This document shows positions 4,299 to 7,616 of a stretch of 12,271 nt of DNA, piece after piece (position 1 is the first letter of the stretch; each line of letters starts with the position of its first letter). Source of the stretch: an uncultured Lachnospiraceae bacterium (lineage in GTDB: Bacteria > Bacillota > Clostridia > Lachnospirales > Lachnospiraceae); assembly GCA_945836355.1 (NCBI GenBank), contig CAMALD010000012.1, positions 1 through 12,271 of the forward strand. The letters run 5' to 3'. Made by a program: the position numbers and the translations under genes. The notes below the pieces were generated by a model. That model had not been told where the DNA came from. It ran no database searches and saw nothing but the letters and a program-made list of their open reading frames with translations.

Positions 4299-5231
4299 CT
4301 AACGGGATGCCGCATACTCTGCCAAGACTGCCCACAGCAACGCATTGCGCTCCCATATATTATCAAACTCATTCGCTGCCAGAGGAGCCGCTCCGACCCC
4401 AATCTCTATCGTGACCGACGGGATGCGCAGTTCCATTACACTCCAGTCGCCGTATCCTGCCGCATCCTGTTTATCATTCGATGCATAACGTATTTCGTTG
4501 CGGTTGATGGATTGAATCAGCTCCACCAGCTTCTCGCAGGAGCTTCTAAGCTCCCCCGTCTGACCGTAATCCCAGTACAGGACACTTCCGGTCGCATGAT
4601 AACTGATTGTAAGAACCGGTCTGACCTCTTTGGTCAGCCGCATCAATGCCCGGGTCTCCGCCTCGCTTCCCGCTTCGGTTCCTTTATATTTTTGCGCCCC
4701 CGGATCTGCTGCACCCTTATATTCTGTAAAACCATAGGAAAAATTCCGGTTCAGGTCAACCCCATTTGCATTGGCTTTCCAGTATTTCAGATAATCTGCC
4801 AGTCTGTAGGAGGTGGCACCGCTGTCAAAATCTCTGCGATACCATTCCTGCACCTTATCAGCAATCCGGGCATCCCGGATTCCATCCAGACCATACTGGC
4901 TGATAGCGATTCCATCGGGATTTGCCATCGGAACAAGGTGGATGCACACCTTGTCAAGCAGCTCCGATACCGCATTATCATGATACTGTGCTTTTTTTTC
5001 ATATGCCAGATAAAATTCGAGCTGCTTCATCACTAATTGTGAAGTCATATACTCTCTGGCATGAATCCCGGCTTGAATCAAAATCGATTTTTCCGCATTT
5101 GGATTGCCCACCGTGACACCGTATACCTTTCGGCCATCGGCAGTCTGCGCCAGCACCTCATACTCCAGCCTCTCCGGGTAAGCCCGCCTCAGTTCCTCCA
5201 AATTTTCCATCAGCTCTTCATACGAATACAC
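4299..5231 (-). CDS. M14-family zinc carboxypeptidase, possibly the C-terminal half of a lipoprotein fusion
   Basis: This has all hallmarks of an M14 metallopeptidase. Zinc ligands are His and Glu in GIHARE and His in TISYHATG, the substrate-binding Arg is in VDLNRN, and the catalytic Glu is in SVTIEIGVG. Numbered from the GTG at 5231 these are H57, E60, H212, R162 and E276. Bacterial relatives of this type often cut gamma-D-glutamyl-diamino acid bonds in peptidoglycan peptides; the substrate here is inference. The domain is complete (about 310 residues) but has no signal peptide. Start uncertain: GTG at 5231 has GGAGG 5 bases upstream and begins right at the domain. GTG at 5252 lies 2 bases beyond the lipoprotein stop and has no Shine-Dalgarno. 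The frame also stays open upstream inside the lipoprotein gene, -1 relative to it, so a slip on the A9 run would make one exported protein. Confidence 0.9.
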   Translation of the reverse strand: MYSYEELMENLEELRRAYPERLEYEVLAQTADGRKVYGVTVGNPNAEKSILIQAGIHAREYMTSQLVMKQLEFYLAYEKKAQYHDNAVSELLDKVCIHLVPMANPDGIAISQYGLDGIRDARIADKVQEWYRRDFDSGATSYRLADYLKYWKANANGVDLNRNFSYGFTEYKGAADPGAQKYKGTEAGSEAETRALMRLTKEVRPVLTISYHATGSVLYWDYGQTGELRSSCEKLVELIQSINRNEIRYASNDKQDAAGYGDWSVMELRIPSVTIEIGVGAAPLAANEFDNIWERNALLWAVLAEYAASR

Positions 5232-5236
5232 TGCAT

Positions 5237-5241
5237 CCTCC
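5237..5241 (-). promoter_or_regulatory. Ribosome binding site inside the peptidase frame
   Basis: GGAGG on the minus strand stands 5 bases before a GTG codon (5229-5231) in the peptidase frame. It is the only good site near the peptidase start and supports independent translation from 5231. It also spells ordinary Glu-Asp codons, so chance is possible. Its first two G are in the right arm of a small hairpin (5240-5254). Confidence 0.5.
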
Positions 5242-5267
5242 GTGTCAACCACGGTCAGTTTTTTTTT
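5240..5267 (-). other. Possible slippage site: A9 run, stop codon and small hairpin
   Basis: On the minus strand a run of nine A (5259-5267) is read GTA AAA AAA AAC TGA in the lipoprotein frame; TGA is its stop (5255-5257). Moving back one base gives AAA AAA AAA CTG ACC GTG, which runs straight into the M14 peptidase. Immediately after the stop, CCGTG (5250-5254) and CACGG (5240-5244) can form a 5-bp hairpin with a 5-base loop. Runs of this length are known to allow ribosomal or RNA-polymerase slippage, and they are also error-prone in sequencing. No Shine-Dalgarno-like stimulator is seen just upstream of the run. Confidence 0.45.
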
Positions 5268-5776
5268 ACATTTACCGCGGAAGCATAGTATTCCAGCGAC
5301 TGTCTGCCGTCCTGCTGCGGCTCCGGACTCTCCGCAAGGTATTCAGCAAAGGCATACACAATCTGGTCGCCGTACAGCAGCATGTCCCAGCCATTGTCCC
5401 CCTTTGCCAGCCTCGTAAAGGTATCACCGAATTTGACCAGCGCAATAATCTCGGTATCCGTAGACGGTCCGGAACGCAGGTTTAGCTTGGACACCGCCAC
5501 CACTACCACATCATTGGTTTTGGTAAAGCCGTCCATATCATCTGCAATGTCGCTTCCCGGCTGTGTCTGCGGCTGTCCTCCCCCCTGCTCGGCGTCGGGA
5601 GTATCCACCGTGTCACCCGGTTCATCCGCCTCTGTCTCCGGGACCACCTTGTGCTCGTAGGTTTTAATCACATTCATGTCCACCGTCTGCGGTGCGCTCT
5701 CACCGGCACTTTCGCCGCATGCCGCCAGCAGCAGAACCGCCGCTAGCATTCCTATCCCTCTTCGCGTATATCTCAT
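5255..5776 (-). CDS. Lipoprotein with bacterial SH3 domain
   Basis: The 173-residue protein starts with an Arg-rich n-region and a hydrophobic stretch ending in a lipobox L-A-A-C (residues 17-20), followed by Gly. It should therefore be exported and lipid-anchored at Cys20. A disordered linker rich in Asp, Glu, Pro and Gln (about 21-85) leads to one SH3b domain (about 92-148) with the signature LNLRSGPSTDTEI. Such domains usually bind cell-wall peptides. The last 25 residues form a short hydrophilic tail ending VNVKKN at an A9 run. The ATG at 5776 is preferred because GAGG lies 6 bases upstream; ATG at 5788 would add four residues. The next gene downstream, an M14 peptidase, begins within a few bases. 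SH3b plus M14 is a sensible single architecture, so this may be the N-terminal half of one protein. Confidence 0.88.
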   Translation of the reverse strand: MRYTRRGIGMLAAVLLLAACGESAGESAPQTVDMNVIKTYEHKVVPETEADEPGDTVDTPDAEQGGGQPQTQPGSDIADDMDGFTKTNDVVVVAVSKLNLRSGPSTDTEIIALVKFGDTFTRLAKGDNGWDMLLYGDQIVYAFAEYLAESPEPQQDGRQSLEYYASAVNVKKN

Positions 5777-5818
5777 AGGCATCCTCATTTCTTTTGAATG
5801 TTTACCGCCCTGTTGTTC

Positions 5819-6232
5819 TTATTCTTCCCCGGCTGCAAAACTGCATATCGCCTCTACGGCATCCTGCGCAGCCGCAACGGATTCCTCCATCCGGTGAATG
5901 ACCTCACTGCCGATTTCCGCCTCCGTCAAAATATTCATCAATGCCTCCAGCATCTTTTTATTCAGCATTGCATCCTGCTCTGTAAGCTGCAGCAACGCTT
6001 CCTTTTGCTCCTCTTCTATCTGCGATTTTTCGATGGACGCCGTCATCTCAAGGTTAATCATGTCCCTCGTGCCCTCAGCTTCCTGTATCGCATGTATCAC
6101 ATCGTAAATCGACTTCAACAGCTTATCATGTTCATTGATTGCATCAAATGCATGCTGTCCGAGCATAAGCTCTGCGCTTTGCAATTCCTGCGTCAACCCC
6201 TGAAGTATTTCCAAGCCCTTCTCTTCTGCCAT
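5819..6232 (-). CDS. Small helical protein of unknown function downstream of radA
   Basis: I do not recognise the family. The 137-residue protein has no signal peptide or membrane segment. It is almost free of Pro and Gly after residue 20 and rich in Glu, Gln, Leu, Ala, Met and Ile, so nearly all of it should be alpha-helical, with likely coiled-coil stretches around residues 15-60 and 65-125. A structural or partner-binding role is possible. The ATG at 6232 lies 4 bases beyond the radA stop, and its ribosome binding site (GGGGG at 6241-6245) is inside the last radA codons. It is therefore probably translationally coupled to radA. A longer reading from 6256, inside radA, lacks a ribosome binding site. 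The lipoprotein gene follows after about 40 bases. Confidence 0.75.
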   Translation of the reverse strand: MAEEKGLEILQGLTQELQSAELMLGQHAFDAINEHDKLLKSIYDVIHAIQEAEGTRDMINLEMTASIEKSQIEEEQKEALLQLTEQDAMLNKKMLEALMNILTEAEIGSEVIHRMEESVAAAQDAVEAICSFAAGEE

Positions 6233-6236
6233 CGCA

Positions 6237-7616
6237 TTATCCCCCAAACAGTCCAAACAGTTCTCTCACGTTACGCACTCCGGTCAGTTTCATCCCGGAG
6301 GTCTTCTTGCGGTTTGTCATAATGCTCTTTGCATTGGCAAACGGCAATATGCATTGATCATAGCCCAGCTTCTCTGCCTCGGTCACACGCTGCTCCGCCA
6401 TTGTCACAGCGCGCACCTCACCAGTCAGACCAACCTCCCCAAACACAATGGTCCGCTCGGGCATCGTCCTGTTCTTATAGCTCGACAAAACAGCAAAGAC
6501 GATTGCCAGATCAAGCGCCGGTTCATTGATGCGCATTCCGCCGGCAACATTGACGTATGCATCACAAAAAGATATCTGTATTCCCAAACGTTTTTCCAGT
6601 ACCGCCAGCAACAGATTGACGCGGTTGAAATCGGTGCCCGCGGCAGTCCTCCTCGGCATATTAAAATTGGTCTGACATACGAGTGCCTGTACTTCCACCA
6701 GCATTGTCCTGCTGCCTTCTGCCACCGCGGTCACAACGGAACCCGGCTCCCCTTCCGGTCTGCCCTCCAGCAGATATTCCGAAGGGTTGAGGATTTCAAC
6801 CAGCCCCTCCGCTCTCATCTCAAACACCCCGATTTCGTTTGTAGAACCAAACCGGTTTTTCACCGCCCTTAAAAAACGATAGGATGCCGCATTGTCCCCC
6901 TCAAAGTACAACACCGTATCCACCATATGTTCCAGCACGCGGGGACCCGCTACCGTTCCTTCCTTCGTGACATGTCCGACAATGAAAATGCTTACCCCCT
7001 GCCCCTTCGCAATGCGGAGCAGGCTTCCCGTCGTTTCCCTCACCTGACTGACGCTGCCCGGCGCAGCGGGAATATCTTCACGGTACATCGTCTGTATCGA
7101 ATCGATAATCACCATCTGCGGTTTCTTCTCATCAATCGCCGCCTCTACAAAATCAAGGTTTGTCTCGGACAACAGCCATAGCTTCTCGCTGGGCTCGTCC
7201 AGACGGTCTGCGCGCATTTTTATCTGCTGCAGCGATTCCTCACCGGATATATATAATACCGAATGGTCTTCCTCAGCAAGCTTACAGCACATCTGCAACA
7301 ATAATGTCGACTTTCCGATGCCCGGGTCACCTCCGACCAGAACCAGGGAACCGGCAACAATGCCGCCCCCCAGCACACGGTCAAGCTCGCCTATCCCGGT
7401 CAGGGTGCGTGCCTCCTGCGCACTGGTCACATCGGCCAGCCGCTTCGGAGTCATCCTCGGCGCAGCCGCGCGCGCAGCTCCTGCCGGGGCGGGCTTTACA
7501 ACCGGTTCTTCTACAAAGCTGTTCCACGCCCTGCACCCCGGACACTGTCCGAGCCATTTGGGTGATTCCTGTCCACATTCCTTACAGAAAAATACTGTTT
7601 TTGCCTTACCTGCCAT
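6237..7616 (-). CDS. radA: DNA repair protein RadA (branch-migration ATPase)
   Basis: The 459-residue protein has the full RadA/Sms order. First comes an N-terminal C4 zinc finger (C11, C14, C25, C28, in CKECG and CPGC). A RecA-like ATPase follows with Walker A GDPGIGKST (96-104) and a Walker B region around MVIIDSIQ (168-175). Then come the RadA signature KNRFG (253-257) and a C-terminal Lon-protease-like domain without the protease catalytic pair. RadA acts with RecA in the cytosol, promoting branch migration in recombinational repair. The ATG at 7616 has GGGAG 5 bases upstream. The gene follows a small unknown gene by 32 bases. In many Firmicutes radA follows clpC and is followed by disA; here disA is absent and a small helical protein takes its place. 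Confidence 0.97.
   Translation of the reverse strand: MAGKAKTVFFCKECGQESPKWLGQCPGCRAWNSFVEEPVVKPAPAGAARAAAPRMTPKRLADVTSAQEARTLTGIGELDRVLGGGIVAGSLVLVGGDPGIGKSTLLLQMCCKLAEEDHSVLYISGEESLQQIKMRADRLDEPSEKLWLLSETNLDFVEAAIDEKKPQMVIIDSIQTMYREDIPAAPGSVSQVRETTGSLLRIAKGQGVSIFIVGHVTKEGTVAGPRVLEHMVDTVLYFEGDNAASYRFLRAVKNRFGSTNEIGVFEMRAEGLVEILNPSEYLLEGRPEGEPGSVVTAVAEGSRTMLVEVQALVCQTNFNMPRRTAAGTDFNRVNLLLAVLEKRLGIQISFCDAYVNVAGGMRINEPALDLAIVFAVLSSYKNRTMPERTIVFGEVGLTGEVRAVTMAEQRVTEAEKLGYDQCILPFANAKSIMTNRKKTSGMKLTGVRNVRELFGLFGG

Follow-up and report, generated by a model that had tools for sequence, protein, structure and literature searches.

A long poly-A run between an SH3 lipoprotein and an M14 peptidase in gut Lachnospiraceae as a probable site of frameshifting

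Mobile elements and a small number of individual genes supply most known cases of frameshifting on runs of adenine. According to the available parts of the source articles, the A11 run in tssM1 of Citrobacter rodentium undergoes transcriptional slippage at a frequency of about 20–25% and gives truncated and full-length variants (PMC4256274). The A9 run of IS1447, an IS3-family element of Clostridium thermocellum, slips in transcription in both directions, ~16% each (PMC6211511), and an A9 run in dnaX of Thermus thermophilus leads to two lengths of one protein (PMC1088944). The A8 tract of Campylobacter jejuni pgp1 has eight adenines in 830 of 859 alleles and is longer in 20 and shorter in 9 (PMC5133587 Table 2). 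For clusters of frameshifted genes, the GeneTack rule assigns those shifting in one direction to ribosomal frameshifting (PMC3711429).

In this study we describe a locus of a gut Lachnospiraceae clade at which an SH3 lipoprotein and an M14 peptidase meet at such a run, and which resembles and differs from these systems as far as the available parts of the articles describe them. Like tssM1, it is a chromosomal gene with a poly-A run before a premature stop and with truncated and full-length variants, here predicted; in the available text the tssM1 site lacks a Shine-Dalgarno-like signal or structure nearby, and here no such element is common to all five genomes compared. Unlike here, tssM1 is a type VI secretion gene whose slippage was shown by experiment, whereas ours is read from sequence, and such sites are uncommon among tssM genes, whereas most clusters found in our clade carry the run. 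IS1447 shares the A9 run and a Firmicutes host, and its extra-base slippage leads to the full product; it is, however, a mobile element with an upstream stem-loop, whereas the upstream fold at our locus beats shuffled sequences in only two of five genomes. dnaX likewise has an A9 run and two protein lengths, but there slippage leads to the shorter product, and the protein is a DNA polymerase subunit. In pgp1, too, an A tract that can change the frame lies in the gene of a wall-peptide carboxypeptidase (PMC5530802, PMC5133587); pgp1 differs in that one length dominates and changes are treated as mutation or possible phase variation, and the available parts of both articles describe no separate short lipoprotein product. 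The kind of frameshift is therefore already known (dnaX, tssM, IS1447), and for the SH3-M14 gene pair we found no report in the literature listings searched. A literature search combining "Lachnospiraceae" and "transcriptional slippage" found no paper, the available parts of PMC3711429, PMC5009743, PMC4256274, PMC6211511, PMC1088944, PMC5530802 and PMC5133587 do not mention an SH3-M14 gene, and in the main text of PMC3711429 no word begins with peptidase or SH3.

The window, that is the whole stretch of 12,271 nucleotides analysed here, is contig 12 of a draft genome (G000) that is 68% complete and consists of 310 contigs. Its minus strand carries, in this order, a RadA-like gene, a small ORF, the SH3-domain lipoprotein, the M14 zinc carboxypeptidase and a further small ORF. 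The gene at 7616..6237 we take to be RadA, a name read from the sequence rather than obtained by family search. The features are as follows.

7616..6237, minus strand: RadA-like gene upstream of the SH3 lipoprotein (name read from the sequence; gene order by tblastn)
5819-6256, minus strand: small ORF between the RadA-like gene and the SH3 lipoprotein (gene order)
5788..5255, minus strand: SH3b-domain lipoprotein frame, 177 aa (ORF; Pfam SH3_3, E 4.7e-07), with the C-terminal end VKKN-stop right behind the A run
5267..5259, minus strand: A9 run, the candidate slippery tract between the lipoprotein and peptidase frames (T9 on the plus strand, 5259-5267)
5257..5255, minus strand: TGA stop of the lipoprotein frame, 1 base past the A9 run
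5252..4299, minus strand: M14 zinc carboxypeptidase frame, 317 aa from GTG 5252 (Pfam Peptidase_M14, E 4.5e-43)

An earlier note on this DNA had read the lipoprotein as ending in GTA AAA AAA AAC TGA with the M14 frame open at -1 through the A9 run, and both the ORFs and the Pfam matches confirm this; the M14 frame is open back to about 5342. A lipobox-like LAAC was spotted by eye in the lipoprotein, and no separate signal sequence is evident in the M14 ORF of the window. The order RadA, small ORF, SH3, M14 is conserved in four further genomes of the genus (G001-G004; tblastn; loci L006, L027, L028, L029). Positions 1-597 of the window, plus strand, hold the end of a protein that resembles Ig-like surface repeats by eye.

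The run at the junction is more than a product of chance, since such runs are rare in the genome, this one sits between domains that form one frame in relatives, and it is kept wherever the gene was found in the genus. The draft genome contains 8 runs of at least nine A per 1.72 Mb on both strands (25 overlapping 9-mer hits). The genus sample comprises six genomes, the relatives' DNA being metagenome-assembled, and the peptidase is present in five; the sixth, G005, is 68% complete. A search of 395 genomes with the fused query found no additional genome of the genus with the gene. All five carry a pure A9-A10 at the junction, as long as poly-A transcriptional slippage calls for (about nine or more): the window and G002 have nine A, and G001, G003 and G004 have ten. 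The peptidase is out of frame at -1 in four (G000, G001, G002, G003), and in G004 a single frame of 510 codons reads through the A10. The junction comparison among close relatives proposed in the earlier note accordingly gave a conserved run in 5/5, shifted frames in 4/5 and one ORF in G004. Nine adjacent A columns are invariant in the five-genome alignment, and the sequence immediately upstream is poorly conserved. Lysine codons in the tract are AAA in 13 of 13 cases (hand count); in the remainder of the five peptidases the figure is 36 of 65. This comparison ignores shared ancestry. A second candidate slippery coding run lies on contig 3 of G000 (1724-1733; L089, ORF from 1423), where an in-frame A10 falls within a Lys-rich segment at roughly codon 26 of an ORF that by eye resembles a chemotaxis receptor and has 529 codons or more.

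The same break is observed well beyond the genus. A protein search with the peptidase gave 1318 matches, and among the best 120 of these, from which the composition was taken, peptidase-only forms and fused SH3-M14 forms are both present near the window. All five fused clusters of the clade among the matches listed (P0004, P0009, P0018, P0024, P0040) have KKKM at the join, and this shared Lys-Lys-Lys junction supports the earlier proposal that the two frames join into one protein on the A run. A profile search with the short lipoprotein, a query that itself ends at the run, scored the best 7995 word-sharing candidates at E up to 1e-10 and gave 32 clusters among them; 31 were used (P0122-P0152) and P0153, a long unrelated SH3 protein, was dropped. 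Among these matches, 29 of the 31 SH3-only clusters end at the run: 23 stop directly after KKK or KKN, 5 have three extra residues and 1 has nineteen. The third run codon is Lys or Asn in all 29. The remaining two are P0140, which stays in frame through the run and then departs from the family sequence, and P0152, which terminates ahead of it. GeneTack looks for at least five members with a conserved frameshift site; here there are 29 SH3-only clusters, with the break present in the DNA of four genomes.

The direction of the shift is -1 wherever it could be read. In addition to the four out-of-frame genomes, read from DNA, the tail of P0138 can spell the peptidase start of P0024 at -1 and not in the other frame, and the motif test gives -1 also for the tails of P0128, P0143, P0145 and L028; the same test leaves P0147 and P0148 ambiguous. 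The contigs of eight further clusters (P0127, P0129, P0134, P0135, P0136, P0141, P0144, P0146) are each exactly as long as that of a peptidase cluster starting M-[K/T/N], and since such starts fit an ATGA overlap, these are probably paired with them at -1. An opposite shift was not seen in the testable cases (the genomes' DNA and the cluster tails); the opposite frame stops within 37 nt in the five genomes, and a protein of that kind would lie within the size range of the search. The shift direction is uniform throughout the testable cases, and immediate stops alone are no proof of direction.

A peptidase tree was built from 33 rows, leaving out P0007 (partial) and P0006 (a copy of L028). Within it, one clade holds 24 cut rows and 5 fused ones, and the fused rows there need at least three changes, gain and loss not being distinguished by the method. 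Outside the clade there are one-frame SH3-M14 proteins (L032, L033, L034) and M14 proteins with a lipoprotein-like leader and without SH3 (e.g., L030, L031). No homopolymer of at least nine was found within 500 nt upstream at any of nine named loci outside the clade, or at any of 29 family loci (17 plus-strand, 12 minus-strand); some loci recur under a second label, L055 and L056 duplicating L032 and L034, and L003-L005 duplicating L028, L027 and L029. The simplest history suggested by these sequences would be one ancestral frame, a single gain of the run, and since then repeated switches from one state, cut or in-frame, to the other. Between the cut alleles L029 and L006, dN is 0.19 and dS 1.62 (dN/dS about 0.12) over just 188 codons, because the G001 peptidase is split over two contigs (L006, L022); for L028 and L006 dN is 0.32 and dS 3.30. 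The estimate covers these 2 of 10 pairs, dS not being computable in the other 8, and third codon positions differ most in 10/10 pairs. On both grounds the peptidase is apparently still in use and appears to be under purifying selection where it is cut. At L069 (G281) the M14 match has one internal TAG.

How should a conserved frame break of this kind be understood? The earlier note had left four options: a controlled frameshift making two forms, phase variation, a recent mutation, or a sequencing error. The first fits best. The SH3 lipoprotein and the M14 peptidase would be a single gene whose frame is broken at the long A run; slippage on the run would let a fraction of the product continue into the peptidase, so that the cell would have a short lipoprotein that binds the wall and a long form, lipoprotein-SH3-peptidase. 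As the same cut is present at the same place in many related bacteria, slippage probably makes both forms, and we consider it likely that functional frameshifting at the run gives the lipoprotein with and without its peptidase. Of the readings weighed, it best accounts jointly for the A run, the early stop, the frame offset and the selection on the peptidase, although that slippage takes place, how often, and what each form does are inferred. Sequencing error and fresh mutation were rejected on the repeated break, the tree and the selection estimates: the identical break in three further genomes of the genus and the 29 clusters ending at the run contradict both. A pseudogene or an assembly error in the tract would suit a 68%-complete draft in 310 contigs, but against the same recurrence, a dN/dS of about 0.12 for one pair and intact active-site residues, it is very improbable. 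Phase variation, by which replication slippage would alter the tract length so that any one clone would be in an on state, with the fused enzyme, or in an off state, with the truncated lipoprotein, stays a rival through cut and fused forms with near-identical lipoprotein parts: those of the cut P0138 and the fused P0024 share 98.2% identity over 169 aa, with the P0138 tail fitting P0024 only at -1, and identity is 89.6% between the peptidases of the cut P0022 and the fused P0018. The three or more state changes on the tree and the existence of in-frame alleles are also as it predicts. It must, however, explain the cut form as the majority state, where Campylobacter pgp1, in the tabulated alleles, has the 8-A length in nearly all (PMC5133587); the opposite shift was not seen, though its frame stops so soon in the five genomes, and 23 of 29 clusters retain the stop directly behind the run. 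We regard phase variation as unlikely. Re-initiation of the peptidase at an ATG or GTG by the stop, as a separate product that stays intracellular, is possible in view of an ATG right behind the run in three of five genomes (within ATGA in L029 and in L027, which is in frame) and of the many M14 clusters among the matches listed that are predicted to start there with MKIVDT, MTIVDT or MNIVDT; M14 relatives without an evident signal sequence also exist (P0032, P0033, P0039, P0041, P0042 and P0044 (by eye), L008 and L072). The window and L028, however, have no ATG there and a GTG a few bases on instead, the pure A run and the KK[KN] of 29 clusters would be left unexplained, and the fused relatives and the one-frame L032-L034 resemble lipoproteins by eye, so that such coupling seems quite improbable.

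If frameshifting at the run does give both forms, the slip could occur in either of two machines. Ribosomal -1 programmed frameshifting on A AAA AAA or A AAA AAC, with RNA polymerase uninvolved, is one branch of this reading; it is consistent with the -1 heptamers inside the run and with a shift of -1 only in testable cases, which the GeneTack rule, as the available text of PMC3711429 gives it, would assign to the ribosome. A stimulator common to all five genomes was not found among downstream folds, upstream folds and Shine-Dalgarno-like motifs. Downstream RNA folds showed no shared conservation, with z-scores of -0.11, 0.25, 0.46, 0.13 and -2.09, below -2 in one of five. Upstream, z was 0.43 in the window, -2.44 in L027, -0.47 in L028, 0.87 in L029 and -3.54 in L006, with a strong hairpin just upstream in two of five (L006 1421-1480, L027 2925-2984) and none in the window, L028 and L029. 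A Shine-Dalgarno-like motif within 30 nt upstream of the run is absent in three of five genomes; the other two have AGGAG 19 nt before the run in L028, a point in favour of the ribosome, and AGGA 28 nt before it in L027. Further against the ribosome, the run is at least nine long though seven suffices, its third codon is Lys or Asn in all 29 clusters, and it is kept in the in-frame genome, which makes this branch somewhat unlikely. Slippage of RNA polymerase is preferred on the run length of at least nine, the constant Lys or Asn codon, the lack of a common stimulator and the precedents of IS1447 and tssM1, and we judge it the likelier of the two at a little short of an even chance.

The peptidase keeps its active-site residues. 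Zinc ligands and the catalytic Glu are present, with HxRE, NRN, His and Glu aligned to solved carboxypeptidases, and H240, E243, H395 and E459 (P0004 numbering) are invariant across 51 rows. The structural model of the fused protein P0004 (mean pLDDT 83) has a disordered leader, followed by SH3-like strands, by a short helix that ends at the join, and by the M14 domain; its fold matches carboxypeptidases B, T and A, and sequence likeness to the murein tripeptide amidase MpaA is far under the family cut-off (35.7 bits vs 157). At the cell surface, the long form would probably trim stem peptides of the wall. The short form may fill wall sites but not cleave there, or it may determine the ratio. 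More tentatively, the poly-A run may be a built-in dosage device of this gut Lachnospiraceae clade that sets the ratio of enzyme-bearing to enzyme-free lipoprotein, with cut and fused alleles as a heritable dial. If frameshifting at the run is true, many species would be keeping a chromosomal wall enzyme out of frame, a conserved cellular use of slippage; this would also account for gene prediction splitting the SH3-M14 gene and connect slippage with wall remodelling. The M14 relatives without an evident signal sequence listed above are about 320-332 aa long and without SH3, and may be either cytoplasmic enzymes or further split genes.
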